A stretch of DNA of 44,163 nucleotides from Acidobacteriota bacterium. Its GTDB lineage: Bacteria > Acidobacteriota > Vicinamibacteria > Vicinamibacterales > 2-12-FULL-66-21. The notes beneath the pieces are model-generated. The model had not been told where the DNA came from. It saw only the letters and a program-made list of their open reading frames with translations, and ran no database searches. Positions 11,126 to 43,974 of this stretch are shown here, in pieces. The translations under genes were made by a program, and so were the position numbers. Position 1 is the stretch's first letter. Every line of letters starts with the position of its first letter. Location of the stretch: positions 1 through 44,163 of the forward strand of contig QHWR01000107.1 in NCBI GenBank assembly GCA_003223835.1, given 5' to 3'.

Positions 11126-11141
11126 AGCAAAACAACGGCCA
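11126..11141 (-). promoter_or_regulatory. Sigma-54 promoter element for pseudo-receiver 1
   Basis: On the reverse strand it reads TGGCCGTTGTTTTGCT, matching TGGCACG-N4-TTGCW with exact GG-N10-GC spacing. Transcription would start near 11115, only a few nucleotides before the GTG at 11108. No clear enhancer repeat lies upstream; the nearest palindrome is ACTAAGT at 11155-11161. Confidence 0.55.
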
Positions 11142-11441
11142 CGGTTCAGCTGATACTAAGTTTAAGAGGCCGTTCAACTTACGTACGATGTATCCCGTGC
11201 CCCGGACGCAGAACTGTCATGGGACGGGTCAATCTGAAACGCGGGTGGGGGTTCGCACGGCGGCCGGCGAGCTCAGCCGAAAAGGCTGCCCCCGAGAAAC
11301 ATTCTGTCTACCAATTCCTCCGCGACGGCGACAACGTGTGTGCGAGTGTGCCGCCGCGGTTCAAGCGCCAGATTGCACGCTTCTTCAATCCTGACCGCAC
11401 TTTGTTCTCTTCCGCTCCGCTGACTTCGTTCTGCCGGGCGA
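11142..11441. other. Non-coding control region between the divergent pseudo-receiver 1 and enhancer-binding-protein genes
   Basis: About 300 bp lie between two divergent sigma-54 elements. The left 80 bp are AT-richer (around TTTAAGAGG and TTACGTACG). An open frame at 11219-11509 crosses the region, but its composition is not protein-like and it lacks a ribosome-binding site, so I regard it as chance. Confidence 0.5.
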
Positions 11442-11457
11442 TGGCCGGTCGCTTGCA
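11442..11457 (+). promoter_or_regulatory. Sigma-54 promoter element for the enhancer-binding-protein gene
   Basis: TGGCCGGTCGCTTGCA has GG-N10-GC spacing. The predicted start near 11468 gives a leader of about 38 nt containing GGGAGA before the GTG at 11506. If real, the regulator needs sigma-54 for its own expression, a possible autoregulatory loop. Confidence 0.55.
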
Positions 11458-11505
11458 GAACTCCCATCGCACCGCGACTTTGTTACTTGTTCCGGGAGAT
11501 CTGCA

Positions 11506-12591
11506 GTGAGAATCCATGGCCAGTTGATGGGCGATAGCCTGCCCTTGATCGAATTGAAGGATGAAATCGAGCGCGTGGCGCGTTCCGATGCCAAGGTGCT
11601 CGTGACCGGAGAGAGCGGCGTCGGCAAGGAGCTGGTCGCCCGCGAGATCCACCGGCGGAGCCTCCGCGCGAGCCGGCCGTTCGTGCCCGTGAATTGCGCC
11701 GGACTCCCCGAGACGCTGCTCGAATCGGAGCTGTTCGGCCACGTCAAGGGCAGCTTCACGGGCGCGTACCGCGACAAGCCGGGCAAGCTCGAAACCGCAC
11801 ACGAAGGCACCGTCTTCCTCGACGAGGTCGGCGAGATGTCGCTGCGGATGCAGGGACTCCTGCTCCGGTTCCTCGAGACGGGCGAGCTGCAGAAGGTCGG
11901 CGCGGAGCGCGCGGCCGGCCTCGTCGACGTCCGGGTGCTCGCCGCGACCAATCGTCCGCTCCCCGATCTGATCGCGCAGGGCCTGTTCCGCGAGGATCTC
12001 TTCTATCGCCTCAACGTGATCCACCTGATGGTCCCGCCGCTGCGTGACCGGCGCGAGGACATTCCCCGGATGGTCGATCACTTCCTGCGCATGTTCACCC
12101 GCGCGAACATTTCGCCGGTGCAGGCGGTCGGGGCGGAGGCGATGGAGGCGCTCGTCCAGTACTCCTGGCCCGGCAACGTCCGCGAGCTGGAGAACGTCGT
12201 CGAGCGGCTCGTCGTCGTCGGCCGCAAGCCGCTCATCGATCTGTCGGATCTTCCGGCGGAGGTGCGCAGCGCGCGGCCGCGCTCGTCACCGATGGCAGCG
12301 CCGCCGCCGCCCAAGACCGTGGACGTCGTCGATCATCTCTACAGCCGCCTGGTGGCCGAGCGAGAGTCGTTCTGGACCGCGGTGTACCCGCTCTATATGC
12401 AGCGGGAGATTACGCGGACGCACGTGCGCGAAGTCGTGCAGAAGGGGCTCGAGGAGGCGCGCGGCAACTACAAAATCATGGTGCAGCTCTTCAACATGGA
12501 GACGCGGGACTACAAGAAGTTCCTGAACTTCCTGCGGAAGCACCAGTGTCAGTTGCCGTTCAAGGAATACCGGCAGGTGACGCACGCGTGA
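11506..12591 (+). CDS. Sigma-54 enhancer-binding protein (AAA+ activator) without a receiver domain
   Basis: A 361-residue activator that starts directly with the AAA+ domain. It shows Walker A GESGVGKE (35-42), the sigma-54 contact loop GSFTGA (82-87, Ala to Ser variant of GAFTGA), Walker B VFLDEV (103-108), the arginine-finger region [11 protein letters not shown] and [17 protein letters not shown]. The C-terminal 90 residues are not a standard Fis domain, but end in [20 protein letters not shown], a divergent helix-turn-helix. There is no regulatory domain of its own. Two pseudo-receivers are encoded on either side and may supply control in trans. The GTG start is backed by GGGAGA 7 nt upstream. 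It is the obvious activator for the sigma-54 promoters across the island. Confidence 0.92.
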
Positions 12592-12599
12592 CGGCGCGC

Positions 12600-12620
12600 G
12601 CCCGCGCCGGTCACGCGGGC
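12600..12620. terminator. GC-rich hairpin between convergent genes
   Basis: GCCCGCG and CGCGGGC form a perfect 7-bp stem with a 7-nt loop, lying between the end of the activator gene and the last codons of pseudo-receiver 2. There is no T-run on either side, so it is at best a bidirectional pause or weak terminator. Confidence 0.35.
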
Positions 12621-13048
12621 AAATAGCCTTCGACGAGCGACGTGGCCGCGCGCGACGCCTGGGCGTCGTTGTCACGCGCGGCGGCTGGGAAAAGCGGCGC
12701 GAGCGCGCCGACCTCGGCCAGAACGGCCTCGACCGTCACGGGCTTCGACATATACGCGGAGGCGCCGAGCGCGAGCGCTTCCTTTTCGATCGTGCGGTCG
12801 GCGATGCCGAGCACGATCACTTTCATCTGCGGGCGCTCGCCCCGGCCGCGCAGCAGCAGGTGCAGACCGTTGTAGGGTCCGAGTCGTACGCCCGCAATCA
12901 GGACGGCCGGGTCGCTGGCGCGCAGCATCCGGCGCGCGTCGCCGAAGGTTTGCGCGCCCATCGCGACATACCCCGATCGGGCGAGCGCGGTGACCAGCGT
13001 CGCCACCAGGCGCGCGTCCTCGTCGACAATCAACACCGTTGTGGCCAT
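12611..13048 (-). CDS. Degenerate receiver (pseudo-receiver) protein 2
   Basis: A 145-residue protein: MATTVLIVDEDARLVATLVT is a proper receiver start with acidic residues, and MSKPVTVEAVL keeps the conserved Lys-Pro. However, the phospho-acceptor site reads AVLIAGVRLGPYNGLHL, with Gly53 where Asp should be. A 25-residue Ala-rich tail follows. It is paralogous to the protein at 10734-11108 and lies tail to tail with the activator gene. The start at 13048 has GGGAAGG with good spacing. Given sigma-54 elements on all three genes, the trio looks like one control module: an activator lacking a receiver plus two phosphorylation-blind receivers. Confidence 0.82.
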   Translation of the reverse strand: MATTVLIVDEDARLVATLVTALARSGYVAMGAQTFGDARRMLRASDPAVLIAGVRLGPYNGLHLLLRGRGERPQMKVIVLGIADRTIEKEALALGASAYMSKPVTVEAVLAEVGALAPLFPAAARDNDAQASRAATSLVEGYLPA

Positions 13049-13079: not shown

Positions 13080-13095
13080 TGCAATTTGAGCGCCG
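13080..13095 (-). promoter_or_regulatory. Sigma-54 promoter element for pseudo-receiver 2
   Basis: The reverse strand reads CGGCGCTCAAATTGCA, with GG-N10-GC spacing and the TTGCA -12 box. The predicted start near 13069 leaves a leader of about 21 nt that includes the ribosome-binding site of the gene at 13048. Confidence 0.6.
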
Positions 13096-13205
13096 AGACG
13101 TTCGTGTCGCTCGCCGCAATGTGGCGAACGAACTCGAACGGACACTTGCAGCGGTTGTCGCTGGCATCGAGCGAGATTCGGCTCATGCGAATCGGCTCAT
13201 GTCTT

Positions 13206-13237
13206 GACTGGGTAGTCAGTTCGTTGACTGCTCAGTA
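13206..13237. promoter_or_regulatory. Tandem GACT-N4-AGT inverted repeats
   Basis: GACTGGGTAGTC at 13206-13217 and GACTGCTCAGTA at 13226-13237 share GACT/AGT half-sites, with centres 20 bp apart. They lie between the divergent sigma-54 elements of pseudo-receiver 2 and the EPS operon. They share half-sites with the GACT-TT-AGTC repeats elsewhere but have a 4-nt spacer, so they may be further enhancer sites or sites of another regulator. Confidence 0.4.
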
Positions 13238-13261
13238 TCCGTAACGACGAGAGGCGCGGGA

Positions 13262-13271
13262 GAGTTTAGTC
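13262..13271. promoter_or_regulatory. Candidate enhancer (UAS) of the forward EPS operon
   Basis: GAGTTTAGTC matches GACTTTAGTC in 9 of 10 positions. Its first base lies 106 bp before the sigma-54 element at 13368, about ten helical turns. Similar repeats precede other sigma-54 elements in this island. Confidence 0.5.
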
Positions 13272-13367
13272 GCGCTGGCGCGGAACTACAGGCTGCGAAG
13301 ACCTCGCGTGACGCGCGTCCAAGGCCGGTTTTGCTGGCGATTTTTCCCGCGTCTCGTGCCGGATCGG

Positions 13368-13383
13368 TGGCGGTCCCTTTGCT
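13368..13383 (+). promoter_or_regulatory. Sigma-54 promoter element of the forward EPS operon
   Basis: TGGCGGTCCCTTTGCT has GG-N10-GC spacing. The predicted start near 13394 gives a leader of about 22 nt with CTGGAG before the ATG at 13416. It resembles the element at 33691 (shared TCCCTTTGC). Confidence 0.68.
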
Positions 13384-13415: not shown

Positions 13416-14042
13416 ATGTGGATTTCTGCCGGCATCTGGCTGGTCATGGCGACCTCTCTCCTCGCTGCGGGCGCGCAGGCCCCCGTCGGCGCCCCCCCGG
13501 GATCGAGTCGCGCCCTGGAAGTGCGGAAGCTCGCCGCGAACCGTGGGATTACGCCGCCGGCGGGTTACCTCATCGGGCCCGACGACCACCTCGCGATCAA
13601 TTTCTGGCGTGACAAAGAGCTGTCCGCGGACGTCATCGTCCGCCCCGACGGACGCATTTCGCTGCCGCTCCTCAACGACGTTGACGCCGCGGGCCTGACA
13701 CCGGAGGCGCTCCGTCTCCGCCTCGTCGAGGAAGCGAAGCGCTTCGTCACGGATCCGACCGCGACCGTCATCGTCACCGAGATCCGCAGCCGCCGGGCGT
13801 TCATCACGGGCAATGTCGAGAAGCCCGGCGCGTACATGCTGAACACGTCGATGACGGTGCTGCAGCTCATCGCAAGCGCCGGCGGACTCAAGGAATTCGT
13901 CGGCGGCCGGAACATTGTCGTGGTGCGCACCGAGGGGGCGCAGCACGCGCGGTTCTCGTTCGATTACCAGGCGGTCGTGAAGGGACGCAACCTGCAGCAG
14001 AACATCGAGCTGAGGCCAGGTGACACGGTCATCGTCCCATGA
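13416..14042 (+). CDS. Polysaccharide export protein (Wza-like, SLBB domain)
   Basis: A 208-residue exported protein with a signal peptide (residues 1-20). The Poly_export domain runs from YLIGPDDHLAINFWRDKELS through VIVRPDGRISLPLLNDVDAA. It is followed by one SLBB beta-grasp domain (ITGNVEKPGAYMLNTSMTVL) and the closing LRPGDTVIVP. It forms or gates the outer-membrane export channel for the EPS. It is shorter than E. coli Wza, as in PEP-CTERM-type EPS loci, and lacks an obvious lipobox Cys. It is the first gene of the operon, and its stop overlaps the next start (ATGA). Confidence 0.88.
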   Translation: MWISAGIWLVMATSLLAAGAQAPVGAPPGSSRALEVRKLAANRGITPPAGYLIGPDDHLAINFWRDKELSADVIVRPDGRISLPLLNDVDAAGLTPEALRLRLVEEAKRFVTDPTATVIVTEIRSRRAFITGNVEKPGAYMLNTSMTVLQLIASAGGLKEFVGGRNIVVVRTEGAQHARFSFDYQAVVKGRNLQQNIELRPGDTVIVP

Positions 14043-15271
14043 GATCGACGGGCAGGCGGCCGTTCTTCGCGGTTCTGATCGGCGTTGTCCTGGCAGGTGG
14101 CGCCGAGACCGCCGTCGCGCAGCAGCCCGCGTCCGGCGCCGACGCGCCGCGGTCCGGCCTGCTGATCTCGACCGACTCCGGGTACGACACCGCGGAGTCG
14201 GGTTCTGGCGACGCGCGCGCCGCTCGCCGCGATTCGCCCGGCCGGCTTCACGCCGAATGGTTTCGCCTGGCGTCGACGCGCCGATCCGTGGTGCGGTTCT
14301 GGACAGGCGTCACGGCTGGCGTCCCCGACAGCGATCGAACGCACGCCGAGGCGTTTGCCTTCGCGGCGTCGACGGTGCTGAGCCGGCGGACGCACTTCGA
14401 TTTCGACGCCCGCGTCAACGCGGCGCCGGTGGACCTGTTCTCGGCGCTCGGCAGCGCCGGGCCGTCCGCGACGCCGGTCACGACGACGTCGTCGTCGTTT
14501 ACGGAAGGGCGGATGATTACTTACGATGCGCGCGCCGTGCTGAGCCGGGCGCTTGGCGCCCGCACGTCGATGAACATCGAGTTGTCGCACACGGGGTCGT
14601 CCACCGAGCGCCGCGGCGTTCGCAACGAACGGATCGGCGGACTCGTGCGCCGTCGCATCGGACCGTTCTCGACGATCCGAGCCGGGTACGCGTTCGACGT
14701 CGCGGTGGCCGCATCGAGCGGCGCACAGGCGATCGATCGGCGTCATGACGTGGATCTCGGCGTCGACTACGCGCGGCCGCTGTCGTTTTCCCGCCATACG
14801 CAGATTGGGTTCGGGACCGGCACGTCGGTCCTGACGAACGCGACGGGACGTCGTTTACGGCTCGCGCTCTCGAGCAGTCTGGCGCGCGATTGGAGCCGCG
14901 CGTGGTCGGCGCGCCTGGAGTACAACCGTCCGATCGAGTACCTCGCCGGCTTTGCGCAGCCGTTTCTCTCGGACGCGGTGACGGTTGGAGCGAACGGACG
15001 CCTCGGGCGTCGTACGACGCTGACGCTCGCGTCAGGATTCTCTCGCGGCGGGGTCGGATTCGGCGCCACGCGACCGCAATTCTCGAGCCGATCCACGTCG
15101 GGCCGGCTCACGGTGCCGATGGGACGTGCGTGGGCCGTCGAGTTCGAGGCGCACGACGCCCGTTATCAGTTGGGAGCGGCCGTGCCGCTTCCGTCGTTCA
15201 TTCCGGAGCGGTTCGTTCGGCGCGGCGCGCGCATCGGGTTCGTGTGGTCGTCGCCGTGGACCGGACGCTGA
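14039..15271 (+). CDS. Outer-membrane beta-barrel protein of the EPS operon
   Basis: A 410-residue protein with a signal peptide (cleavage after ETAVAQ). The rest is an alternation of short amphipathic strands rich in Arg, Thr, Ser and Gly, such as TRRSVVRFWTGVTAGV and RLGRRTTLTLASGFSRGGVG, and it ends in aromatic-rich strands. No enzymatic motif is seen. A barrel gene at this place, between the export protein and the chain-length determinant, is usual in exosortase-associated EPS operons and may provide the pore. It is translationally coupled to the export gene. Confidence 0.72.
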   Translation: MRSTGRRPFFAVLIGVVLAGGAETAVAQQPASGADAPRSGLLISTDSGYDTAESGSGDARAARRDSPGRLHAEWFRLASTRRSVVRFWTGVTAGVPDSDRTHAEAFAFAASTVLSRRTHFDFDARVNAAPVDLFSALGSAGPSATPVTTTSSSFTEGRMITYDARAVLSRALGARTSMNIELSHTGSSTERRGVRNERIGGLVRRRIGPFSTIRAGYAFDVAVAASSGAQAIDRRHDVDLGVDYARPLSFSRHTQIGFGTGTSVLTNATGRRLRLALSSSLARDWSRAWSARLEYNRPIEYLAGFAQPFLSDAVTVGANGRLGRRTTLTLASGFSRGGVGFGATRPQFSSRSTSGRLTVPMGRAWAVEFEAHDARYQLGAAVPLPSFIPERFVRRGARIGFVWSSPWTGR

Positions 15272-15278
15272 GGTTCCC

Positions 15279-16880
15279 GTGCTACCTGGACGTCAATACC
15301 GCGTCGAAGACATCCTGCGCATCGCCTGGCGGCGAAAGTGGCTGATCGTGTTGCCGTTCGTGGTGATCTCGACCGCTACCGTGTTCGTCACCAAGCGGCT
15401 GCCAAACCAGTACCGATCGGAAACGGTGATCCTCGTCGTGCCGCAGAAGGTGCCCGAGAGCTACGTGCGATCCACCGTCAGCGGCCACATCGAGGATCGA
15501 CTGCAGTCGCTGCAGCAACAGATTCTGAGCCGCAGCCGCCTCGAGCGCATCATCGACGACTTCAATCTCTTCACCGCTCAGCGCCGCGTGAGGCCGATGG
15601 AGGCGATCGTCGAAGGGATGCGCGCGGCGATCAAGGTCGAAACGGTCCGGGGCGGCGACGCGTTCAGCGTGTCGTACACCGGGTCGGATCCGCTGATCGT
15701 GAAGGCGGTGACCGAGCGCCTCGCCTCGCTGTTCATCGAGGAGAACGTCCGCGACCGCGAGATGCTCGCGATCGGCACGAGCGATTTCCTGCAGACTCAG
15801 CTCGACGACGCACGCAAACGGCTCATCGAGCAGGAGAAGAGGCTCGAAGAGTACCGGCTCCGGTACGCGGGGCAGTTGCCGTCACAGGCGGCATCCAATC
15901 TTCAGGCGCTCCAGAACGGGCGCATGCAGCTCCAGGCGCTGGATGACGCGCTCGCCCGTGCGCGCGATCGGCAAGTGACGCTCGAGCGTGCGGTCGGGGA
16001 TCTTCTGGCGACCGAGACTCCGACGGCCGCGCCCGTCGCCGCGACGGCGCCCCCGCCGCCAGCCGCCAGCGGGGATCCGGCGGCTCTTGCGGGATCGACG
16101 CCGGCCGAACAGCTTCTCGACGCACGTCGCAGGCTGGCGGCGCTGGAGTCGCGGCTGCTGCCCGAGCATCCCGATATCGCGCGACTGAAGCGCCAGATCG
16201 CCCAGCTCGAACCGAAGGTCGCGGCCGACTCGGCAGCATCGGCCGCGACGACGCCGTCGGCGGCGGCGCGTCCCGCCCGCGACGCCGCGCAGGTGGCACG
16301 CGAGCGGCGCATTCGTGACATCAGGGCGGACCTCGATGCCATCGGACGCGAGATCGCCGCCCGCCAGAACGACCAGCAGCGCGTGCGGACCGAGATGGCC
16401 CTCTACCAATCCCGGCTCGACGCCGCGCCGATCCGCGAAGCGGAGATGACGGAGCTGACGCGCGACTACGACACCATCCAGCAAATCTACCGGGGACTTC
16501 TTGCCAAGCGTGAGGACTCGAAGGTTGCCGCGAACCTCGAGCAGCGTCAGGTCGGCGAACAGTTCCGGGTCCTCGACCCCGCGCGCGTGCCGGAGCGGCC
16601 GTTCAGCCCGGATCGCATGAAGCTCAATCTCATGGGAATCGCGTTCGGCCTGGTGCTCGGACTCGCGTCGGTGGCGGCGATCGAATACTTCGACACGAGC
16701 CTGAAGACGGAAGACGACGTCCGCACGGTGTTGTCGCTCCCGGTGATCGCGACGATTCCGCTGCTGACGCAGACGATGGGGGACGTGAGGGTGCGCGCCC
16801 GGCTGCGTTGGTCCTTTACCGCCGGTGCGGCGGCCATCGTGATCGCGATAGCCACGATCGTGTGGAGATTCAGGGGTTGA
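15279..16880 (+). CDS. Polysaccharide chain-length determinant (Wzz/GNVR family)
   Basis: A 533-residue inner-membrane co-polymerase. The first span (about residues 22-38) follows the Wzz start RQYRVEDILRIAWRRKWLIV. Long periplasmic coiled coils (about 170-270 and 340-430) are split by an Ala/Pro-rich loop. The GNVR-like region ends RVLDPARVPERPFSPDRMKL before the second span (about 446-466). A third hydrophobic segment closes the protein. The kinase domain is absent, being encoded by the next gene. GTG at 15279 with GAGG 6 nt upstream is preferred; the longer frame overlaps the barrel gene. It controls chain length and export together with the kinase. Confidence 0.87.
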   Translation: MLPGRQYRVEDILRIAWRRKWLIVLPFVVISTATVFVTKRLPNQYRSETVILVVPQKVPESYVRSTVSGHIEDRLQSLQQQILSRSRLERIIDDFNLFTAQRRVRPMEAIVEGMRAAIKVETVRGGDAFSVSYTGSDPLIVKAVTERLASLFIEENVRDREMLAIGTSDFLQTQLDDARKRLIEQEKRLEEYRLRYAGQLPSQAASNLQALQNGRMQLQALDDALARARDRQVTLERAVGDLLATETPTAAPVAATAPPPPAASGDPAALAGSTPAEQLLDARRRLAALESRLLPEHPDIARLKRQIAQLEPKVAADSAASAATTPSAAARPARDAAQVARERRIRDIRADLDAIGREIAARQNDQQRVRTEMALYQSRLDAAPIREAEMTELTRDYDTIQQIYRGLLAKREDSKVAANLEQRQVGEQFRVLDPARVPERPFSPDRMKLNLMGIAFGLVLGLASVAAIEYFDTSLKTEDDVRTVLSLPVIATIPLLTQTMGDVRVRARLRWSFTAGAAAIVIAIATIVWRFRG

Positions 16881-16885
16881 CGGCC

Positions 16886-17615
16886 ATGCATGATTTCGCA
16901 TCGAGCGTCGAGCAGCCGTTCCGGATCGCGCCCGTGGACCGGGGCAACGGCGTGCGCGCGACGATCGACCGCCTGCCGGGCAAGGTCGTGCTGAGCCCCG
17001 ACACGCCGTCCGCGGTCGTGGAGCAATACCGCCGGCTGGCGGCGACGCTGCACCACCAAAACGCTGACGGCCACCAACCTGGCCCTGACGCTCACCGAAT
17101 CGTTCCGCCGCCGCGTTCTCGTGATCGACGCGGATCTGCGCCGGCCGTCGATGCACCACACCTTCGGGTTGCCTAACAATACCGGGCTCAACGACGCGCT
17201 GCTCGGGCGCGACAACATGCCCACCGCCTTCGAGATGTCGTCCCGGCTCACCGTGCTGCCGGCAGGCTGCCCCAATCCGGATCCGATCGGCGTGCTCACG
17301 TCACCGGCGATGCGGCAGCTCGTCAAGTTCGCGAGGGACGGCTACGACTGGGTGCTCATCGACACGCCGCCGGTCGGTCTGCTGACCGACGCGCACCTCG
17401 TCGCCCAGATGGTCGATGCGGTCGTGATGGTGGTGAGCGCCGGCGCGGTGCCGTACCGGGTCGTCCAGCGCTCGGCCGACGCGCTCGGCCGCGACCGGAT
17501 CATCGGCGTCGTCCTCAATCGCGCGGCGGCGGCGCCGTTCGAGCGCGCGTATGGGTACGGCGGCTATGGCGGCTATTACGGTGCGCACTCGCACGAGGAT
17601 CAAGAACAGGCATGA
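16886..17615 (+). pseudogene. Bacterial tyrosine autokinase (CpsD/CapB-like), P-loop deleted and frameshifted
   Basis: The gene begins in one frame (MHDFASSVEQPFRIAPVDRG to EQYRRLAATLHH, ending near 17056). It continues in another frame from about 17058 with KTLTATNLALTLTESFRRRV, then the Walker A' segment LVIDADLRRPSMHH, Walker B WVLIDTPPV and the Tyr-rich tail YGYGGYGGYYG. Family members have about 20-25 residues at the junction, including the Walker A loop GEGKT. Here that segment is missing and the frame is broken, so no active kinase can be made from this sequence. The start lies just after the chain-length gene and the end overlaps the next start (ATGA), so the locus is otherwise intact. 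An assembly error cannot be excluded. Confidence 0.82.
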
Positions 17616-36092: not shown

Positions 36093-36100
36093 AACAGGCA

Positions 36101-36174: not shown

Positions 36175-36190
36175 TGGCGAGTTCTTTGCT
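36175..36190 (+). promoter_or_regulatory. Sigma-54 promoter element of the AlkP-superfamily gene
   Basis: TGGCGAGTTCTTTGCT has GG-N10-GC spacing. The predicted start near 36201 leaves a leader of about 52 nt that carries CAGGAGAA before the ATG at 36253. Confidence 0.66.
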
Positions 36191-36252
36191 CAAGGCACAG
36201 CACGACACCGCGTCGCCGATCCAGGCGAAGCTGTGTCAGCCCAGGAGAACTC

Positions 36253-37638
36253 ATGAAGACCGCGCAGCGCGTGATGTTGTTGGAATTCAACGAGCTTTCG
36301 CCCCAACTGATGGATCGGTTCATGGGGGAGGGACACCTGCCCAACTTCCGTCGGCTGCGCAGCGAGTCGCAGATTTACGTCACCGAAGCCGCGGAGCGCG
36401 GCTGGGAGCTGAACCCCTGGGTGCAGTGGGTCACGGTGCACTCGGGCCTGGATTATCAGGACCACGGGATCACCGAGCTCGACGAGGGCGCGAAGCTCCA
36501 GGCGGAACGGGTGTGGGACGTCGTGTCCCAGGCGGGACTGCCGGTGTGGGTCTGCGGAAGCATGAACGTGGCGTACCGCCAGCCGGTCAACGGTCTCGTG
36601 ATGCCGGATCCCTGGACGACGAAAGTCCCTCCCTCCGACACGCTGCAGCCGTTCTTTCGATTCGTGAGACAGCACGTCACCGAACATACGAAGGACTCGC
36701 TGCCGCTCGGCCGCGCCGATTACCTGAGATTCGGGGCGTTCATGCTTCGCCACGGACTGTCGTTCGCCACCGTCGCGGCGATCGTCCGTCAGCTCGTGTC
36801 GGAACGGACCACCCCGGACCAGTACTGGAAGCGCGCCGTGCTCCTCGACAAGCTGCAGTTCGACGTCTTTCGCTGGTACTACCGGAAGACGAAGCCGGCC
36901 TTCTCGACGTTCTTCTCGAACAGCACCGCGCACTATCAGCACTATTACTGGCGGGAAATGGAACCGCACCTCTTCAAGGTGCAGTCCACGCCGGAGCAGG
37001 TCGCCGCGCACGAGAAGGCGATCCTGTTCGGGTACCGGGAAATGGACACGATGATGGCGAAGGCGCTCGCGCTCGCGGGGCGCGACACGGCCGTCATCTT
37101 CGCGACCGCGATCAGCCAGCAGCCGTGCCTGGTTTATGAGGAGCAGGGAGGGAAGGTCATCTACCGGCCGCGCGACTTCGAAGCATTGATGAACTTCGCG
37201 GGCGTGACCGAATCGTATTCAATCGCGCCCGTGATGGCCGAAGTATTCAACATCCACGTCCCGAGGGAAGAGGACGCGGCGCGCGTGGAGGCGAAGCTCG
37301 CCGCGCTGCACTCGGGCGGACGTCCCGCGATGCAACTCCTTCGCACGGGTACCATCATCAACGCGAAGTGCCGGCTCCACGAGAAGCTGCCGCTCGACAC
37401 GGCGCTTGGCCGGAAGGATTCGGCGCAAACCGTACCGCTGTTCGACGTCTTCTACCAGATCGAGGACTTGAAGAGCGGGATGCATCATCCGGACGGCATG
37501 CTGTGGATCCGGCTGCCGGACAAAGGGCATCAGCTCCACACGACGAAAGTGCCGCTCGCGTCGCTCGCGCCGACGATGCTCAGGCTGCTGTCGCTGCCGC
37601 GGCCGTCCCACATGAAGGCCTCGCCGATCGCGCTCTAG
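36253..37638 (+). CDS. Alkaline-phosphatase-superfamily protein, cytoplasmic
   Basis: A 461-residue protein without signal peptide. The start RVMLLEFNELSPQLMDRFMG with LPNFRRLRSES is the AlkP/phosphodiesterase-superfamily N-terminus; further matches are PAFSTFFSNSTAHYQHYYWR and the closing LASLAPTMLRLLSLPRPSHM. The usual metal ligands are only partly visible: Asn replaces the first Asp/Ser cluster, and the expected DHG-like region reads ATAISQQPCL. The activity may therefore be altered. Related proteins appear in polysaccharide islands, but their role is not established. The gene is convergent with the next one; the stop codons overlap in CTAG. Confidence 0.72.
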   Translation: MKTAQRVMLLEFNELSPQLMDRFMGEGHLPNFRRLRSESQIYVTEAAERGWELNPWVQWVTVHSGLDYQDHGITELDEGAKLQAERVWDVVSQAGLPVWVCGSMNVAYRQPVNGLVMPDPWTTKVPPSDTLQPFFRFVRQHVTEHTKDSLPLGRADYLRFGAFMLRHGLSFATVAAIVRQLVSERTTPDQYWKRAVLLDKLQFDVFRWYYRKTKPAFSTFFSNSTAHYQHYYWREMEPHLFKVQSTPEQVAAHEKAILFGYREMDTMMAKALALAGRDTAVIFATAISQQPCLVYEEQGGKVIYRPRDFEALMNFAGVTESYSIAPVMAEVFNIHVPREEDAARVEAKLAALHSGGRPAMQLLRTGTIINAKCRLHEKLPLDTALGRKDSAQTVPLFDVFYQIEDLKSGMHHPDGMLWIRLPDKGHQLHTTKVPLASLAPTMLRLLSLPRPSHMKASPIAL

Positions 37639-39398
37639 CAACGCGCGTGGGTGAGGACCGAATCGATGGCGTCCACGATGCGGCGATAGGCGGCCTCGAC
37701 CGCCGCCGCGTCCTTGCGATAGGGATCCGGAATCTGAACGTCTGCTGAATCGGAAGACTCGATCGCGCCCAGCAGATACAGCTTTCCCGCGGAATCCGGA
37801 TAGCGTTTGCGGACCTCCTCGAGGTTCGTCCGATCCATCACGAAGATCAGATCCGCCCATCGAATGAGATCCTCGCTGAGCGGCTTCGATCGGTGCGATG
37901 ACAAATCGATGTTCCAGCCGCGACCCGCCGCGATCGCGCGCGGATCGGCTTCGCGGTCTTGCCGGTCGTAAATCCCGGCGGACGTCGTCTCGATGCGGGA
38001 CCCGTTGCCGGACGTCCGCCGCGCCAGGTACGCGCTCGCGAAGGGGCTGCGGATGATGTTTCCGTAGCAGACGAAGAGCAGCTTCTCCACGGCAGGAAGT
38101 GTCTGGACGAGCACGTTCCTGCGGCGCAATCGGTACCAGCGCGAGCTGAGGCGGCCGGCGCCGCGCGCGATGCGCCGCTTGACGCCGCGTAACTGCTCGA
38201 CGGCCGTTTGCCACAGATCCACGGCGCCCGGAACGGGATCCCAGAACACCTGCACGTCATAGTGTTCCGCGGGGGATGCCATGCGGACGGCTTCGCGCAG
38301 CAACGTGCCGATGGAGCGCGGCCGTACGAATCCTGCCAGGACCGCCGGATCGCGCGGATCGACGCTGAGGTTCGCTTTGAACCACTCGATGTCGTCACGC
38401 AGTCGCCGGCATCGCACGCCGGACCTGTACGGACGCGGCGCGGACGTTTTCTCCCGCACGAGCATCTCGTAGAGATCTTTCGCGAAACACATGCCGGCGC
38501 GCGAGGACAAGGGGAGCGAACCCCAGAAGCGGCCGTTGATTTCCATCAGGCTGGCGGCGCCCGTTTCGTCGTTCACCTTGAACTCGATCATCGCCACGCC
38601 GGTCCAGCGGAGCGCCCCCATCAGCCGGGCTGCATACTCACGCAACGTCCGATCGACGGGGACGCTCATGCGGTACGTGCTGCCGCCACCGGTGAGCGGC
38701 AATTCGTGGAGGCGGCGATGCTGGAAGACCTGGAGGAGCTCGCCGTTTCGGGCGAGCACTTCGACGCCGACGCCAATGCCTTGCGTGTACTCCTGCAGGA
38801 TGACCGGACAGACGTCGATCCGCGCCAGGACTTCGGCCCGCAGCTCGCGGCGATCGAAGGCATAGAAGACGGGAAAGCTTCGAAAGCCCGATGGCGCCCA
38901 GACACTCGACGACAGGGGCTTGCACGCGATCGGGAATTGCAACGTCTCGGCGCGTCTCTCGAGGTCGTCCGCCGATCGGACGACCACGCTCGCCGGCGCT
39001 GGAACGCCGACCGTGCGGGCGAGCTGCAGCGTGCTGGCCTTGTCGCACACGATCTGCATCTTGTCGAACGACTCGGTGGCCAGGGTCGACAAGGTTCCCA
39101 GCCGGTCGAGGTTTTTGGAGATTGGAACGACCGTCAGGTCCGTGACCGGAATGACCAGACTGCAGCGATCGCGTCTCAGCGTTTCTTCCAGCCATTCGAT
39201 GAAGGCGGCCGGGGCGTCAGCGGGGTCCGGATACGTGACGCATGCGCGCGCGAAGCGGCTCCTGAACGCGACGGCGTCCTTGCAAGGGGCGCCCGCCGTC
39301 ACGGACACGCCGGCCCTGCCGAGCCCTCGAACGATGTCGAGCGCCGGGATCTTGTCCCCGTCGAGAACTAGAACGTGGCCGTGCGCCATGCCCGCCAT
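37635..39398 (-). CDS. ATP-grasp ligase fused to a low-molecular-weight protein tyrosine phosphatase
   Basis: 587 residues with two joined parts. The first 330 residues form an ATP-grasp carboxylate-amine ligase: VLVLDGDKIPALDIVRGLGR, VCDKASTLQLARTVGVPAPA, FPIACKPLSSSVW and the metal site MEINGRFWGSLPLSS. After a linker, residues about 440-585 are a low-molecular-weight phosphatase with CX5R motif VCYGNIIRSPFAS (Cys and Arg intact) and general-acid region IPDPYRKD. In EPS systems such phosphatases oppose the tyrosine autokinase (at 16886 here, itself broken). Fusion to ATP-grasp is unusual and suggests coupling of a ligation step to phosphorylation control. Two ATG starts are possible (39398, 39389); both overlap the deacetylase gene upstream. 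Confidence 0.85.
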   Translation of the reverse strand: MAGMAHGHVLVLDGDKIPALDIVRGLGRAGVSVTAGAPCKDAVAFRSRFARACVTYPDPADAPAAFIEWLEETLRRDRCSLVIPVTDLTVVPISKNLDRLGTLSTLATESFDKMQIVCDKASTLQLARTVGVPAPASVVVRSADDLERRAETLQFPIACKPLSSSVWAPSGFRSFPVFYAFDRRELRAEVLARIDVCPVILQEYTQGIGVGVEVLARNGELLQVFQHRRLHELPLTGGGSTYRMSVPVDRTLREYAARLMGALRWTGVAMIEFKVNDETGAASLMEINGRFWGSLPLSSRAGMCFAKDLYEMLVREKTSAPRPYRSGVRCRRLRDDIEWFKANLSVDPRDPAVLAGFVRPRSIGTLLREAVRMASPAEHYDVQVFWDPVPGAVDLWQTAVEQLRGVKRRIARGAGRLSSRWYRLRRRNVLVQTLPAVEKLLFVCYGNIIRSPFASAYLARRTSGNGSRIETTSAGIYDRQDREADPRAIAAGRGWNIDLSSHRSKPLSEDLIRWADLIFVMDRTNLEEVRKRYPDSAGKLYLLGAIESSDSADVQIPDPYRKDAAAVEAAYRRIVDAIDSVLTHARC

Positions 39399-40369
39399 CC
39401 ATCCGCCAGCGTCGTGACGCCGTTGACGGCGCTCCTGAACTTCACCATCTCGCGAGCGGCGCCGATTCGCTCGAGGCGGTACGGATCGGCCGTCGAGACA
39501 ATCGGTCCGCCGTGGGCGACCGTCGCGCAGCGATAGCCCGCCTGCTTCACCGCGAGCACGGCGCGTTCGTCATAGTCGGCCGGCTCTCCGTTCGGATAAC
39601 AGAAGGCTTCGACGGGACGTCCGAGCCGCCGCTCGATAATCCGGCGCGAGTCCCCGACCTCGCGCGCGATGTCGGCCGCCGAGCAGCGCGACAGCACGGG
39701 ATGCGTGCACGTGTGAGATCCGATGTCGATCAACTCGCGATCCAGCCCCCGAATTTCGTCCCAGGTCATGCCGCGGTAAGCCGGCAGCGGCCGCTCGGGA
39801 ATCGCGATTTGCAGTTCGCGCTGCAGCGTCTGGATCACCGTCTCCCTCCCGGCACCATCCATCGCGAGACACCGTTCTCCGATGGCCGACCACGCCCGCT
39901 GCCGCGCCGGCATCGACGATAAATCGAGCTGCAGGATCCCGCCGTCGATCGGGAGTGCGCAACGGGATCTCGCGGTCTGAAGAAGGACGTAGTGGACGGC
40001 GTCGAACCACAGCCAGTAGTCGCCGTCGACGAACCGTGTCACGACGAACAGCGTCGCCGGCACCTCAAACCGTCGAAGCAGCGGATACGCGTGCTCGCGG
40101 AAATCCTCGTACCCATCGTCGATCGTGACGACGACTGTCCGCGCGTCCAGGGCGCGTCCGCCGTGAAGCGCCTGCACGACGTCGCGCAGGGGCGAGACGC
40201 GGAAGTGCCGAACGAGATAACGGAGCTGCTGTTCGAAGCTCGTCGCCGTCATCCGCCGGCCCGCGGCGTCGGTGCCGAAGCGGTGATACATCAGCACCCG
40301 GCCTCCGGATCGGGTGAGGCGCCGCGCGAGCGGCCCGCCAAGCAGGCCCACGATCGGTTTCAGGCTCAT
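39368..40369 (-). CDS. Polysaccharide deacetylase, NodB/CE4 family
   Basis: A 333-residue CE4 enzyme without signal peptide. VLMYHRFGTDAAGRRMTATS starts the fold, VVTIDDGYEDFREHAYPLL carries the catalytic and metal Asp pair, GSHTCTHPVLSRCS supplies the two metal His residues, and EAFCYPNGEPADYDE is motif 3. It likely deacetylates a hexosamine unit or precursor; being cytoplasmic by sequence, it may act on lipid-linked intermediates. ATG at 40369 (MSLKPIVGLLGG) is chosen; the longer open frame runs through the regulatory region. It forms an operon with the overlapping ATP-grasp/phosphatase gene. Confidence 0.87.
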   Translation of the reverse strand: MSLKPIVGLLGGPLARRLTRSGGRVLMYHRFGTDAAGRRMTATSFEQQLRYLVRHFRVSPLRDVVQALHGGRALDARTVVVTIDDGYEDFREHAYPLLRRFEVPATLFVVTRFVDGDYWLWFDAVHYVLLQTARSRCALPIDGGILQLDLSSMPARQRAWSAIGERCLAMDGAGRETVIQTLQRELQIAIPERPLPAYRGMTWDEIRGLDRELIDIGSHTCTHPVLSRCSAADIAREVGDSRRIIERRLGRPVEAFCYPNGEPADYDERAVLAVKQAGYRCATVAHGGPIVSTADPYRLERIGAAREMVKFRSAVNGVTTLADGWRAWRTATF

Positions 40370-40400
40370 GTTCAGGACGGGAGAATTCGCCGATGCGGAA

Positions 40401-40410
40401 GACTTTGGTC
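40401..40410. promoter_or_regulatory. Candidate enhancer (UAS) in the divergent 40.4-kb region
   Basis: GACTTTGGTC, within the larger palindrome GAAGAC-TTTG-GTCTTC, starts 74 bp before the forward sigma-54 element at 40475. This is the same distance as at 36101/36175. For the reverse element at 40493 it would lie downstream. Confidence 0.5.
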
Positions 40411-40474
40411 TTCCGGACACGGACCGCTGGCCCGCACGGCCCGCGTCCGGCGCACCATCGCGTCCGAAGACGGC

Positions 40475-40490
40475 TGGCCGTGGCATTGCA
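40475..40490 (+). promoter_or_regulatory. Sigma-54 promoter element of the GT2/GT4 pair
   Basis: TGGCCGTGGCATTGCA has GG-N10-GC spacing. The predicted start near 40501 is almost at the GTG chosen for the GT2 gene (40503), implying a leaderless message or a later start codon. The phased UAS supports it. Confidence 0.5.
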
Positions 40491-40492
40491 GC

Positions 40493-40508
40493 AGCAACAG
40501 CCGTGCCT
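40493..40508 (-). promoter_or_regulatory. Sigma-54 promoter element of the deacetylase/ATP-grasp operon
   Basis: The reverse strand reads AGGCACGGCTGTTGCT, a near-consensus TGGCACG-N4-TTGCT. It is only 2 bp from the forward element at 40475-40490, so polymerase could not occupy both at once. The leader to ATG 40369 would be about 113 nt. Confidence 0.5.
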
Positions 40509-41426
40509 CCTCGTACCCCACGGGTCTCGGTAATCGTTCCCGCGTTCAACGCCGAGCCCTACATCCGTGAGACGCTCGACAGCGTCCTGGCCCAGGACTA
40601 TCCGGGCCTCGAAGTCATCGTGTCCGACGACGGATCGACGGACGGCACGCGCGAGTGCGTCAGGTCGTATGGCGCGCGGGTCGGATACGTCTACGGCGAA
40701 AACAGCGGTGGCGCCGCCCGTCCGCGCAACGAAGGCTTGCGCGTCGCGACGGGCGAGCTGATCGCTGCGGCGCAGGTTGCATTCTTCGCGAGGCATCCCG
40801 GGGTCGGTATCGTGTTCACCGACTACGAAGAGTTCGGCGCCGACAAGCGAGAGAAGAACGGACACTTTCAGAACTGCCCGCTGCTGAGCGCGCGGCTGCG
40901 GCAGCAGCCAGGCGCGGAAACCGAGGGTCTCGTGCTGTCGTCCGCCGAGGCCACCGAGCTCCTCCTGACCGAGAACTTCGGATCGTCGGCGCCGATGGTG
41001 CGGCGTGACGCGATCGATCGCGTCGGCGGCTACGACGAGGCCGCAATCCCGTCGGAGGACTTCGAGTTCTCGTTTCGCGTGGCCGCCGCCTATCCCGTCG
41101 GCATCGTTCCGCGGATCGATTGGCGGAAGCGGCAGCACCCGTCGAACCTGAGCGCCAACACGCCGCGCGTGCTGCGCCAGAAAATCGCGGTGCGGGAGCG
41201 GCTGCTGGCCGCGGAGCGGTCGCGGCGTCGCCGCCGCAAGTTGAAGCAGCGGATCGCGACGTGGCACGCCGATCTGGCGTACTACTACACCGGCCGCGAC
41301 AACGCGCTGGCGCTGCGCCACGCGCTCAACGGGCTCGCCTTCGACTTCAGGCCGCGTCCTCGCCTGTTGCTGCGGCTGGCGCTGGACCTGGCGGGACGCG
41401 ATTCGCTTCGTGGCGCGCGAGCATGA
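40503..41426 (+). CDS. Glycosyltransferase GT2 family with the DxD segment missing
   Basis: About 307 residues. The start VPPRTPRVSVIVPAFNAEPY and VIVSDDGSTDGTRECVRSYG are normal GT2. However, the text goes from NEGLRVATGELIA straight into AAQVAFFARHPGVGIVFTDY. Family members have about 13-16 residues here of the type FLDADDxWxPxKL, which hold the metal-binding DxD. An in-frame deletion has removed them, so catalysis should fail. The rest (GYDEAAIPSEDFEFSFRVAA, DWRKRQHPSNLSAN) is intact. GTG at 40503 is preferred because the upstream in-frame region is regulatory. The end overlaps the next GT4 start (ATGA). Confidence 0.75.
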   Translation: MPPRTPRVSVIVPAFNAEPYIRETLDSVLAQDYPGLEVIVSDDGSTDGTRECVRSYGARVGYVYGENSGGAARPRNEGLRVATGELIAAAQVAFFARHPGVGIVFTDYEEFGADKREKNGHFQNCPLLSARLRQQPGAETEGLVLSSAEATELLLTENFGSSAPMVRRDAIDRVGGYDEAAIPSEDFEFSFRVAAAYPVGIVPRIDWRKRQHPSNLSANTPRVLRQKIAVRERLLAAERSRRRRRKLKQRIATWHADLAYYYTGRDNALALRHALNGLAFDFRPRPRLLLRLALDLAGRDSLRGARA

Positions 41427-42622
41427 GCGCGATGCGGATTCAGCTCCTGACGTCCGCCGCCGAGTGGGGCGGCACCGAGATGCACACGCTGCAGCTCGCG
41501 CAGACGCTGGGCGATCGCGGGCATGACGTCACCATCGTGGAGCTCGCGCGTCCGGCGTACGAACGCGCCGCCGAGGCCGCCGGTCTGCGCGCGAAGATCG
41601 TGCGGTCGGCGAACCCGCGCAACGGCGCGCGCCGGGGATGCGTCGGCTGGTGGCGCACGCTTCGCCAGTTCGACGGCGACGTCTGCGTCCTCGTGAAAGG
41701 GTTCATCGAGGTCGGCACGTGGCAGCTCGACCTCGCCGCTCGCCTGCGCTTCCCGCGCTACGTGACGATCGAGCACCTCACCGGCGTCATGCCGCCGCGC
41801 ACCACGGGACGGCACGTCTGGGGCATGGTGCCCGGCGTCGGCCTCTGGTGGTACCGCACCATCGTGGCACGCGCCGCGCGGGGCTGGTGGCCCGAGCGCA
41901 TCGTCTGCGTCAGCGACTCGGTGCGGAACGAGCTCGCGACCCGCTATCGCTTCAGTCCGGACAAGCTCGTCACGATCCCGAATGGCGTGAACGTCGATCG
42001 GTTTCAGCGCGACCGTGCCGCGGGCCGCTCGCTCCGGCGCACGTGGCGCATTCCTGAAGACGCGTTCGTGTTCGGCGCGGTGGGACGGCTCAGCGGCATG
42101 AAACGATTCCAGCATGCGCTCGACGCGTTCGCGCGGGTGTGTCAAGCGACGCGCCGGGACGTCCGGTTCGTCCTCGCCGGCACCGGGCCGCTGCGCGAAG
42201 CGCTCGAAGATCAAGTCCTCCGGGCCGGCATCTCGCACCTCGTCACGTTCCCGGGGTACACCGATCGTCCCGAGCAGGTGTACTCGGCGCTGGATGTCTT
42301 CGTGATGCCGAGCCGCAACGAGGGTCTGCCGCTTGCGCTGCTCGAGGCGATGGGGTGCGAATGCTGTCCTGTCGCCGCTTCCGTCGGGGGCGTGCCCGAA
42401 GTGTTGGACGACCCGTCGCTCGGATGGCTCGTGCCCGCCGAGGACGACGAACGCTTCTTCGGCGCGATGCAGGCCGCGGCGGGATTGGCGGCGTCCGACC
42501 TTGCCGCGATGGGCGTCCGCGCACGCGCGCGCGTGGTCGAGCGGTTCGACGCGCGGATGCAGTTCGCCGCGATCGCGGACGTCATCGAACAGCCCGGTGC
42601 ACCCGGTCAGGTCGCAAGATAG
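41423..42622 (+). CDS. Glycosyltransferase, GT4 family
   Basis: A 399-residue GT4 enzyme. It starts MRIQLLTSAAEWGGTEMHTL with the classic GGTE loop, has VCVSDSVRNELATRYRFSPD-KLVTIPNGVNVDRF, VFGAVGRLSGMKRFQHALDA, FVLAGTGPLREALEDQVL and PSRNEGLPLALLEAMGCECC with both Glu residues. It is complete. Its start overlaps the GT2 stop, and its 3' end overlaps the convergent thioesterase gene by 16 bp. Confidence 0.88.
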   Translation: MSAMRIQLLTSAAEWGGTEMHTLQLAQTLGDRGHDVTIVELARPAYERAAEAAGLRAKIVRSANPRNGARRGCVGWWRTLRQFDGDVCVLVKGFIEVGTWQLDLAARLRFPRYVTIEHLTGVMPPRTTGRHVWGMVPGVGLWWYRTIVARAARGWWPERIVCVSDSVRNELATRYRFSPDKLVTIPNGVNVDRFQRDRAAGRSLRRTWRIPEDAFVFGAVGRLSGMKRFQHALDAFARVCQATRRDVRFVLAGTGPLREALEDQVLRAGISHLVTFPGYTDRPEQVYSALDVFVMPSRNEGLPLALLEAMGCECCPVAASVGGVPEVLDDPSLGWLVPAEDDERFFGAMQAAAGLAASDLAAMGVRARARVVERFDARMQFAAIADVIEQPGAPGQVAR

Positions 42623-43746
42623 CGCCGCACCAGTGCCGCCGTCGCGCCGACACCAGGCTCTTCCAGCATCGTCAGATGTCCGCCGGGCATGTCGTGCACC
42701 GACATCCCGCCGGTGGCGAGGCCCGACCAGTGCGGCACCGGGTCTTTATCCGCCATGGCTCGGAACAGCACGATCGGTCCGTCGTAACTCGACGGCGTGT
42801 ACATCGAGAGCAATCGGTTGCCGGTCTTGAGATTGGCGGCGCAGCGGTACATCAGATCCGGCGGAACCGGTTCGCCGTTCGTGCGGCCCCGCCGCCGAAC
42901 GATGTCGTGAGCGCGCGAGGACGCGTCGCGCAGGCCGCCGCCGACACCGCGAAGCAGACCCAGCACTTCCGATTTGTTGCTTCGGATCTTCTCCGACACG
43001 TACCGGACGGCGTCTCCCGCCGGAAGCGTCGAGGCATGACTCAGATGGGATTTGACGCGGTGCCGCAAGGGTGCGGGGCCGACACCGACGATCCCGCTGG
43101 CTGCCGCTTCCGGATTCGCGTCGTTGCGGACGAAGGCGCTGAAAAGCAGCACGGGGTCGCAGCGTTGCCCCTGCGCTCGAAGCTGCCGCGCCATCTCGAA
43201 CGCGACGGTCCCTCCGAAGGAACCCCCGCCGAGGCTGTATGGACCATCGGGCTGAACGGACATTACGAGCGCCAGATACCGCGCCGCGACCTCCTCCATG
43301 CTTCCGAAGCGGTGGAACGGATGGCCGAGGCCATCATCAGAGGCTTCCGCCCTGAGGGCAAAAACCGGACGATCGGGCGCCAGCCGCGCGGCGAGCGCAC
43401 GGTAGAAGAAGACGTAGCCTCCCCCCGCGTGGATAAGGAACAACGGGCGCTCCTTGCCGCGCGGTTGAAGGCAGACGACCAGCGCCGACGGCGGTTGCGC
43501 GTTGTCTTCGATCAGGCGTGACATGGCTGCCACGGTCGGTCTCGTGCCGATCTCGCTGACCGGCAGCCCCTCCGCGAGCAGACCGAACGCAGCCCGAATG
43601 GTTTCGAGTCCCTGCGCGAGCAACGCCGGATCCGCGCCGAGCTCGACAAGCGAATCATGAGCGCCGACAGGCGCGACGTTCAGCAGCTGTTCCCAGATCT
43701 CTTGCACTCTCCGTTCGACGGGCGACTGGCCGGGTGACGCAGACAT
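42607..43746 (-). CDS. Carrier-like domain plus thioesterase (type I TE) protein
   Basis: 379 residues. Residues 1-85 have the acyl/peptidyl-carrier fold (VERRVQEIWEQLLNV, DSLVELGADPALLAQGL). The attachment Ser of the usual GGDSL motif is Pro40, so no phosphopantetheine arm can be attached. Residues about 100-379 are an alpha/beta-hydrolase thioesterase of the non-ribosomal peptide synthetase type: PLFLIHAGGGYVFFYRALAA, nucleophile Ser176 in SLGGGSFGGT, and His357 in MPGGHLTMLEEP. In an EPS island it could release or transfer acyl or aminoacyl groups for polymer decoration, perhaps with the CapK-like enzymes (inference). ATG at 43746 is chosen because a sigma-54 element lies just upstream. 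Confidence 0.82.
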   Translation of the reverse strand: MSASPGQSPVERRVQEIWEQLLNVAPVGAHDSLVELGADPALLAQGLETIRAAFGLLAEGLPVSEIGTRPTVAAMSRLIEDNAQPPSALVVCLQPRGKERPLFLIHAGGGYVFFYRALAARLAPDRPVFALRAEASDDGLGHPFHRFGSMEEVAARYLALVMSVQPDGPYSLGGGSFGGTVAFEMARQLRAQGQRCDPVLLFSAFVRNDANPEAAASGIVGVGPAPLRHRVKSHLSHASTLPAGDAVRYVSEKIRSNKSEVLGLLRGVGGGLRDASSRAHDIVRRRGRTNGEPVPPDLMYRCAANLKTGNRLLSMYTPSSYDGPIVLFRAMADKDPVPHWSGLATGGMSVHDMPGGHLTMLEEPGVGATAALVRRYLAT

Positions 43747-43785
43747 ACGGGTCCGTTCATTGGGTGGGGGCCCGTCGTGCCCATC

Positions 43786-43801
43786 CGCAAGGTTCGTGCC
43801 C
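43786..43801 (-). promoter_or_regulatory. Sigma-54 promoter element of the thioesterase gene
   Basis: The reverse strand reads GGGCACGAACCTTGCG, close to TGGCACG-N4-TTGC. The predicted start near 43775 leaves a leader of about 29 nt before ATG 43746. Confidence 0.62.
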
Positions 43802-43854
43802 CCCGGGCCGCCGTCAGAGCATCCCGTTGCCACGCATCCGGTCTGGCGCCGTCA

Positions 43855-43864
43855 GACCTTAGTC
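43855..43864. promoter_or_regulatory. Candidate shared enhancer (UAS) of two divergent sigma-54 promoters
   Basis: GACCTTAGTC (9 of 10 to GACTTTAGTC; flanks CA and GGC resemble those at 36101) lies 63 bp from the reverse element and 104 bp from the forward element, about six and ten helical turns. Confidence 0.52.
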
Positions 43865-43958
43865 GGCTCCACAGATGATTTCCTTCGGTGGCGGATCCTC
43901 CCCGCCGTTCGGGACGCTGGATTCGCGCCGGCTTCGGGCAAACGACGGCGGCGCGATC

Positions 43959-43974
43959 GGCGTACCTTTTGCTC
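43959..43974 (+). promoter_or_regulatory. Sigma-54 promoter element of the second asparagine synthetase-like gene
   Basis: CGGCGTACCTTTTGCT has GG-N10-GC spacing. The predicted start near 43985 gives a leader of about 45 nt before ATG 44030. Confidence 0.62.

Follow-up and report, generated by a model that had tools for sequence, protein, structure and literature searches.

A probable sigma-54 regulon with a receiverless activator in an exosortase-type exopolysaccharide island of an Acidobacteriota bacterium

Few bacteria are as abundant in soil as the Acidobacteriota, whose exopolysaccharides (EPS) are thought to be important for soil structure and for survival under drought. Contig QHWR01000107.1 of assembly GCA_003223835.1, from an Acidobacteriota bacterium of the order Vicinamibacterales, carries an island of EPS genes together with a gene for a sigma-54 activator, here called ACT, and it raises the question of whether the island is wired as one regulon of sigma-54 (RpoN), as a preliminary description of the same DNA had proposed. 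The window analysed is this entire contig (C332; 44,163 nucleotides), which belongs to a fragmented genome of 5.75 Mb in 400 contigs with one rpoN locus (Sigma54_DBD E 5e-65); the island runs past the contig end. The polysaccharide-coat genes are probably switched on together, under a control unlike the system known in other bacteria, because nearly every gene group has the same promoter type and a matching activator site. With a probability of roughly 0.8, RpoN and ACT, which is PspF-like, drive an XrtA-type EPS regulon parallel to PrsK/PrsR.

The first step is to separate promoters from coincidence. The preliminary description listed eleven GG-N10-GC elements, all of which were recovered at their places and in their orientations, with exact spacing, and it warned that lone matches can be due to chance in GC-rich DNA. 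That caution was justified: a bare scan for YGGCN7TTGC gave no genome-wide enrichment (649 matches vs 953 for the reversed pattern), so that single matches carry no meaning here, and in the window the one-mismatch pattern occurs at chance level (40 vs 36 expected). Both results would suit the view that GG-N10-GC is simply frequent in DNA with 67% GC and that the earlier reader picked the favourable cases. What is decisive is placement upstream of unit heads, rather than bare matches. Gene starts were taken from a home-made caller, and 569 kb (40 stretches) of the same genome served as background for the promoter statistics. With a first, general sigma-54 matrix (literature-style, with approximate weights and a site cut-off score of at least 11), 10 of 15 island heads have a site vs 16 of 229 heads elsewhere (Fisher P=7e-8), which bears out the enrichment that the preliminary description had made a check of its proposal. 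A second matrix, trained on relatives only and hence independent of the window, gave 6/15 vs 4/229 (P=3e-6). The reversed motif produced no promoter-like match in the island at the same threshold, and left of 10.7 kb, where no elements had been reported, none of the five heads has a site with either matrix. These placement statistics, like the ortholog conservation and the linked enhancer considered below, are so far from chance that coincidence and favourable picking are strongly disfavoured, and we regard them as an extremely improbable explanation.

Twelve elements, named here by position and strand, were graded: six strong, four moderate and two weak. The relatives-trained matrix rates as strong 11126- before RR1, a receiver-like gene (11127-11141, minus strand; TGGCCGTTGTTTTGC), 11442+ before ACT (11442-11456; TGGCCGGTCGCTTGC; conserved at ortholog unit heads), 13368+ before the EPS core operon with its export gene first (13368-13382; TGGCGGTCCCTTTGC), 33691+ before a LamG/Big surface protein gene (33691-33705; CGGCAGTCCCTTTGC), 36175+ before gene 36253 (36175-36189; TGGCGAGTTCTTTGC; the strongest) and 40475+ before the glycosyltransferase genes 40503 and 41423 (40475-40489; TGGCCGTGGCATTGC). 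Moderate by the same matrix are 13080- before the receiver-like gene RR2 (13081-13095, minus strand; CGGCGCTCAAATTGC), 31858- before the leftward glycosyltransferase/Wzy/amidotransferase unit that begins at 31842 (31859-31873, minus strand; CGGAAGGCATTTTGC) and a site before the glycosyltransferase gene 32018. The latter gene had been described as having no good element; a candidate, TGGCACTTCTTTTGGA, was found at 31987-32002 (score 12.4), and its -24/-12-like element (31987-32001, plus strand; TGGCACTTCTTTTGG) has GG instead of GC at -12. The remaining moderate element, 43958+ (43958-43972; CGGCGTACCTTTTGC), scores 13.8 with the general matrix only and precedes a gene cut by the contig end, the product of which begins MCGIAG..., a start of the asparagine-synthase/amidotransferase type. 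Weak are the -24/-12-like elements 40493- before a deacetylase gene (40494-40508, minus strand; AGGCACGGCTGTTGC) and 43786- before an acyl carrier protein (ACP)-thioesterase gene (43787-43801, minus strand; GGGCACGAACCTTGC). Each element is intergenic and stands just before a gene start, as described earlier; the assignment of all of them to EPS units holds less well, the minus-strand heads at 10734-11108 and 12611-13048 being stand-alone receiver-like genes and not EPS enzymes. In the cleanest cases a ribosome-binding site and then a start codon come after the predicted transcription start: GGAAGG then ATG at 13048 (13080-), GGAG then ATG at 13416 (13368+) and GGGAG then GTG at 11506 (11442+). 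At 40475-40508 two opposed elements, 40475+ and 40493-, cover each other's start region; as they overlap, just one of them would be occupied at any time.

Conservation in related genomes, also named beforehand as a check, was counted over 157 genomes of the order Vicinamibacterales. ACT relatives occur in 72 of them. A strong -24/-12 site at ACT or at the unit head is present in about 24 of the 48 close ACT orthologs whose upstream sequence is long enough, vs one for the reversed motif. Close copies of ACT usually stand first in an operon that continues with the export protein, a barrel-like protein, a chain-length protein, a kinase, EpsB2 and a deacetylase. The window differs in that RR2 separates ACT from the export gene, which has a promoter of its own. 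Its dense promoter wiring is unusual, since most relatives show one or few such promoters per locus.

A sigma-54 regulon needs an activator site common to its promoters, and a palindrome, GCAGACTTTTGTCTGC, would fill that role. Words resembling GACTTTAGTC were first noticed on reading the intergenic regions of the island. In relatives this window-seeded 10-mer, with one mismatch allowed, was found at 17 of 54 sigma-54 promoters vs 16 of 349 other heads (P=3e-8). Unseeded motif discovery by expectation maximisation, carried out on relatives' promoters adjoining ACT, returned AGgcAGACTTTTGTCT, a portion of the palindrome, and on held-out promoters far from ACT the palindrome marked 23/50 sigma-54 promoters vs 17/271 other heads (P=3e-11). 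Relatives are not mutually independent, and because of their kinship these P-values are optimistic; the effect sizes are large all the same. At the activator promoters of relatives the palindrome lies mostly 115-142 bp upstream of -24, which is the usual position of an activator site, with some pairs about 21 bp apart. Composite arrangements of enhancer and -24/-12 site in relatives precede ACT, a GT4 glycosyltransferase, Wzy-type ligases, ATP-binding cassette (ABC) export permeases, UDP-glucose dehydrogenase, an epimerase, a PrsT-like tetratricopeptide repeat (TPR) protein and PilZ-domain genes.

Within the window, scores were computed with an enhancer matrix derived from relatives, and region p-values refer to intergenic DNA of the same genome. 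The enhancer occurs in six of the seven site-bearing intergenic regions of the island, which have a combined P=6e-12, and at 9/11 island promoters vs 1/18 other sigma-54 promoters of the genome (P=5e-5). Candidates lie mostly 38-163 bp upstream of promoters, and twice at 61 bp. The two best are at 40398-40413 (GAAGACTTTGGTCTTC; score 22.7), 61 bp upstream of 40475+ and shared as an identical 16-mer with two further Vicinamibacterales genomes, and at 36098-36113 (GCAGACTTTAGTCCGC; score 19.9), 61 bp upstream of 36175+ and one of six strict GNNGACTTTNGTCNNC matches in the 5.75 Mb. Two candidates have a score of 15.7 and p 0.0002: 11419-11434 (GCTGACTTCGTTCTGC), 7 bp from the ACT -24 element and 277 bp upstream of the RR1 site, and 31933-31948 (GTTGACTTAATTCAGC), between the divergent promoters 31858- and 31987+. 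They are followed by 43852-43867 (TCAGACCTTAGTCGGC; score 12.4, p 0.027), between 43786- and 43958+, and 13259-13274 (GGAGAGTTTAGTCGCG; score 11.2, p 0.054), between the RR2 and EPS core promoters and 93 bp from 13368+; all six are on the plus strand. The sequence statistics establish the promoters and the enhancer, as well as their joint placement and conservation. The earlier claim that the island is wired to sigma-54 is supported on three sides, by enrichment within the genome, by conservation at orthologs and by an independent enhancer motif, which links the promoters to a single activator family.

Other dyads in the island were set aside. The double palindrome TTGACTN4AGTCA at 13204-13238 is not common to other promoters and was rejected as the enhancer, and exact inverted repeats in the island intergenic regions yielded no common dyad. 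A strong enhancer match (14.7) at 30650-30665 lies in the gap between two glycosyltransferase genes, with no sigma-54 site. Across the order, the strictest enhancer form is rare, being found in 12/72 ACT-positive vs 2/85 other genomes (P=0.003), and in several ACT-positive genomes it lies within a few kb of ACT. Co-occurrence of the looser form GNNGACTTTNGTCNNC with ACT was abandoned as a test, blurred by matches in coding regions and by an outlier of the same order, genome G110. This genome has 36 copies of GNNGACTTTNGTCNNC, perhaps a repeat family, and no ACT match above the cut-off.

The next question is which protein would use these sites. The preliminary description noted a sigma-54 activator without a receiver inside the island, and ACT (11506-12591, plus strand) answers to it: its AAA+ domain begins at the N-terminus (from residue 7), with the match to Pfam Sigma54_activat (E 1e-63) starting at residue 7-8 of 361. 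Walker motifs are present, and the loop that contacts sigma-54, GAFTGA in its usual form, reads GSFTGA. There is no N-terminal regulatory domain, and ACT aligns to PspF from position 1. The predicted structure (AlphaFold, with a predicted local distance difference test score, pLDDT, of 91) matches AAA+ domains of ZraR/NtrC1/FleQ in Foldseek. Its C-terminus is likely a divergent helix-turn-helix (HTH) of the Fis type, the helical layout of which fits, and it stays likely rather than proven because the profile comparison (hhalign; E 3e-4 over 34 columns) has a probability of just 39%. Sequence and Foldseek searches with the isolated C-terminal domain gave no significant match and no solved relative.

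We infer that the enhancer is bound by ACT rather than by its paralog in the same genome, although the paralog has to be weighed. It is encoded at G000:C13 (L112), is 55% identical to ACT with a related HTH, and has counterparts in most relatives; on its own contig a sigma-54 site at 3085 adjoins a strong enhancer match at 2989 (score 17.7). Promoters and enhancer could be real, with this paralog or some other activator serving the island and ACT controlling its own operon only. We consider this unlikely, given that the enhancer was found unseeded from promoters adjoining ACT-family genes, and that ACT is present in 12 of the 14 genomes that have the strictest matches, in several of them within a few kb of the match; moreover, the paralogs may share the site instead of competing for it.

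The position of the enhancer at ACT itself opens a different possibility. It lies just 7 bp from ACT's own -24 element, a position more typical of repression, and copies 7-9 bp upstream of -24 also occur in the relatives' loci L108, L177, L180 and L183, which suggests negative autoregulation. Extended to the island, this would make the enhancer by the ACT promoter an operator and ACT a repressor of some units, kept negative or poised, with housekeeping promoters giving basal EPS expression; FleQ and VpsR, relatives that also act without sigma-54, would be precedents. Nevertheless, a scan of 30600-44163, weak in such DNA, returned no sigma-70-like promoter (0 vs 0.9 expected), ACT retains the sigma-54-contacting GSFTGA loop, and relatives have many of their enhancers at 40-165 bp, a distance classical for activation. 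Control of this negative or poised kind is therefore rated as quite improbable.

Further observations, besides the enhancer next to the ACT -24 element, weigh against activation of the island by RpoN and ACT as one regulon. By the relatives-trained matrix some window sites, 40493- and 43786-, are weak, and at several promoters the predicted leaders measure just 2-7 nt. The 33691 promoter has a weak enhancer candidate only (33601-33616, minus strand; score 9.4, p 0.12), to which a second enhancer matrix lends no support. About half of the 48 close orthologs show no detectable strong site at the ACT unit head. In addition to the second ACT paralog, the genome encodes about 30 other sigma-54 activators, and no enhancer was found at the exosortase operon, on another contig (G000:C355), despite its sigma-54-like sites.

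Regulation of the island by RpoN and ACT remains the reading that we prefer, and we infer a single regulon, the co-expression of its genes and an input signal acting on ACT. RpoN-polymerase would wait at the -24/-12 promoters before most island transcription units, while ACT would bind the palindromic enhancers as a dimer of Fis-type HTHs. Enhancer-bound ACT would then form a hexamer, loop the DNA and contact RpoN-polymerase via its GSFTGA loop, opening the island promoters together, those of its own operon included. A partner protein would gate ACT, either the adjoining pseudo-receivers or, in relatives, PilZ proteins.

The genes behind these promoters identify the island as an XrtA-type EPS locus, a reading that follows from Pfam and NCBIfam matches. 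Of the XrtA-associated EPS families, TIGR03006 and TIGR03013 score above the cut-off in the window, and TIGR03007, TIGR03027 and TIGR03108 below it. The EPS core operon (13416-19908, plus strand; NCBIfam TIGR03027, TIGR03007, TIGR01007, TIGR03013 and TIGR03006) has the same gene order in relatives and comprises genes for the export protein (13416-14042), a barrel-like protein (14039-15271), a chain-length protein (about 15279-16880), the remnant of a tyrosine autokinase (17121-17615), the EpsB2 sugar transferase (TIGR03013; 17612-18985) and the XrtA-system deacetylase (TIGR03006; 18982-19908). At 16868-17615 the autokinase gene is apparently broken, with the N-terminal part in one frame, the Walker A stretch missing and the remainder in another frame (17121-17615); this seems to be either a real deletion or an assembly error. 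The leftward unit (19932-31842, minus strand) holds an AMP-ligase-like gene, glycosyltransferases, an XrtA amidotransferase (24049-25923), a Wzy-like ligase (28107-29393) and a GT4 pair. Further EPS units in mixed orientation (32018-42622) include, on the plus strand, a glycosyltransferase gene from 32018, the LamG/Big surface protein gene from 33792, gene 36253, a GT2 gene from 40503 and a GT4 gene from 41423, and on the minus strand a deacetylase gene (39368-40369) and the gene at 37635-39398, which joins an ATP-grasp domain to a low-molecular-weight protein tyrosine phosphatase.

The exosortase itself is encoded outside the window, at G000:C355:14543-15301, with PEP-CTERM genes adjoining. 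Two PEP-CTERM-type genes, each behind a sigma-54-like site, belong to its operon (L227; 11605-16336) along with EpsI-like and PrsT-like genes, and the operon may use the same sigma factor with a different activator. In the order, 41 genomes have an exosortase and 40 of them also have ACT (P=2e-16).

How the activator would be switched on is suggested by its neighbours. ACT is flanked by two stand-alone pseudo-receivers on the minus strand, RR1 (10734-11108; Response_reg E 2e-6) and RR2 (12611-13048; E 7e-13), in which alignment shows the phospho-acceptor Asp replaced by Ala (VAAERLGTHNGLHL) and Gly (IAGVRLGPYNGLHL), respectively. They share the motif RLGxxNGLHL with small genes adjoining ACT-family genes elsewhere, and the phospho-acceptor Asp is kept in several related genes near ACT-family genes of other genomes. 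In five relatives' loci (L102, L108, L149, L151 and L177), the ACT unit has PilZ-domain genes at its start or close to it, behind composite enhancer/sigma-54 promoters, a hint of an input from cyclic di-GMP (c-di-GMP). Having no receiver, ACT must take its on/off signal from another protein; likely partners are the pseudo-receivers here and PilZ-type genes at the operon head in several relatives, which would mean control by c-di-GMP or by protein-protein contact instead of phosphorylation. Our judgement is evenly poised on a broader proposal, that throughout the order Vicinamibacterales a dedicated family of receiverless sigma-54 activators is the master switch for making exosortase-type EPS, instead of PrsK/PrsR. 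Such a family would act through a new palindromic enhancer and take its signal from separate partners, namely non-phosphorylatable pseudo-receivers or PilZ c-di-GMP receptors encoded adjacently, and its target promoters would have spread as EPS modules were shuffled.

The findings outline a concrete circuit, made up of a single sigma factor, a single activator family and a 16-bp enhancer, together with a set of target promoters open to direct testing. The enhancer combined with -24/-12 sites offers a genomic handle for locating EPS modules, and the locus adds an activator that has no receiver and may take its input in trans, through pseudo-receivers or PilZ proteins. Our literature search returned no report on the regulation of exosortase-type EPS, or on sigma-54 control of EPS, in Acidobacteriota.

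FleQ and VpsR are receiver-degenerate bacterial enhancer-binding proteins that govern polysaccharide genes. They bind c-di-GMP themselves and can act without sigma-54, whereas ACT has no such N-terminal domain; the c-di-GMP input may be provided by PilZ genes that neighbour ACT in relatives. PspF, of the group of such proteins that have no N-terminal regulatory domain, resembles ACT in having its AAA+ domain at the N-terminus, a C-terminal HTH and, presumably, control by a partner protein. ACT differs from it in belonging to an Acidobacteriota family, whose members share about 50-72% identity with ACT and have a distinctive linker and a divergent HTH, and in its link to EPS rather than to membrane stress, no pspA having been seen in the window.

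The closest comparison is with PrsK/PrsR/PrsT, the PEP-CTERM regulatory system of Proteobacteria (Haft et al. 2006, PMC1569441); the pepA gene of Aquincola is RpoN-dependent (PMC9850573). Common to both are the exosortase/EPS setting, sigma-54 promoters, an upstream activator motif and an AAA+ activator, of the Fis type there and probably here (PMC1569441, PMC9850573), and the spacing of the motif is comparable, with a mean of 62.8 bp for PrsK/PrsR. In that system, however, a receiver-bearing activator is paired with a cognate histidine kinase, whereas the island has a receiverless ACT in a genome without PrsK, so that the preliminary description was right to call the arrangement different. 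PrsK (TIGR02916) has no match in the genome at E 1e-40 or better, and is found in 5/157 genomes of the order. ACT scores 271.9 against the PrsR model TIGR02915, below its cut-off of 502.6, and for this reason, and for want of a receiver, it is not a PrsR member, even if it would work like one. The activator motif of PrsK/PrsR ends in TTTACA and is found mainly before PEP-CTERM genes, whereas the island enhancer is GCAGACTTTTGTCTGC and stands before units for EPS biosynthesis and export. It is already known in general that sigma-54 can control EPS genes, and RpoN governing EPS and envelope genes is a predicted theme (Francke et al. 2011, PMC3162934); in the available portion of that survey Acidobacteria and exosortase are not mentioned, and ACT and the enhancer are not defined. 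A receiverless activator as such is not unusual, as PspF illustrates; the new aspects are the combination and the fact that it is conserved across the order.

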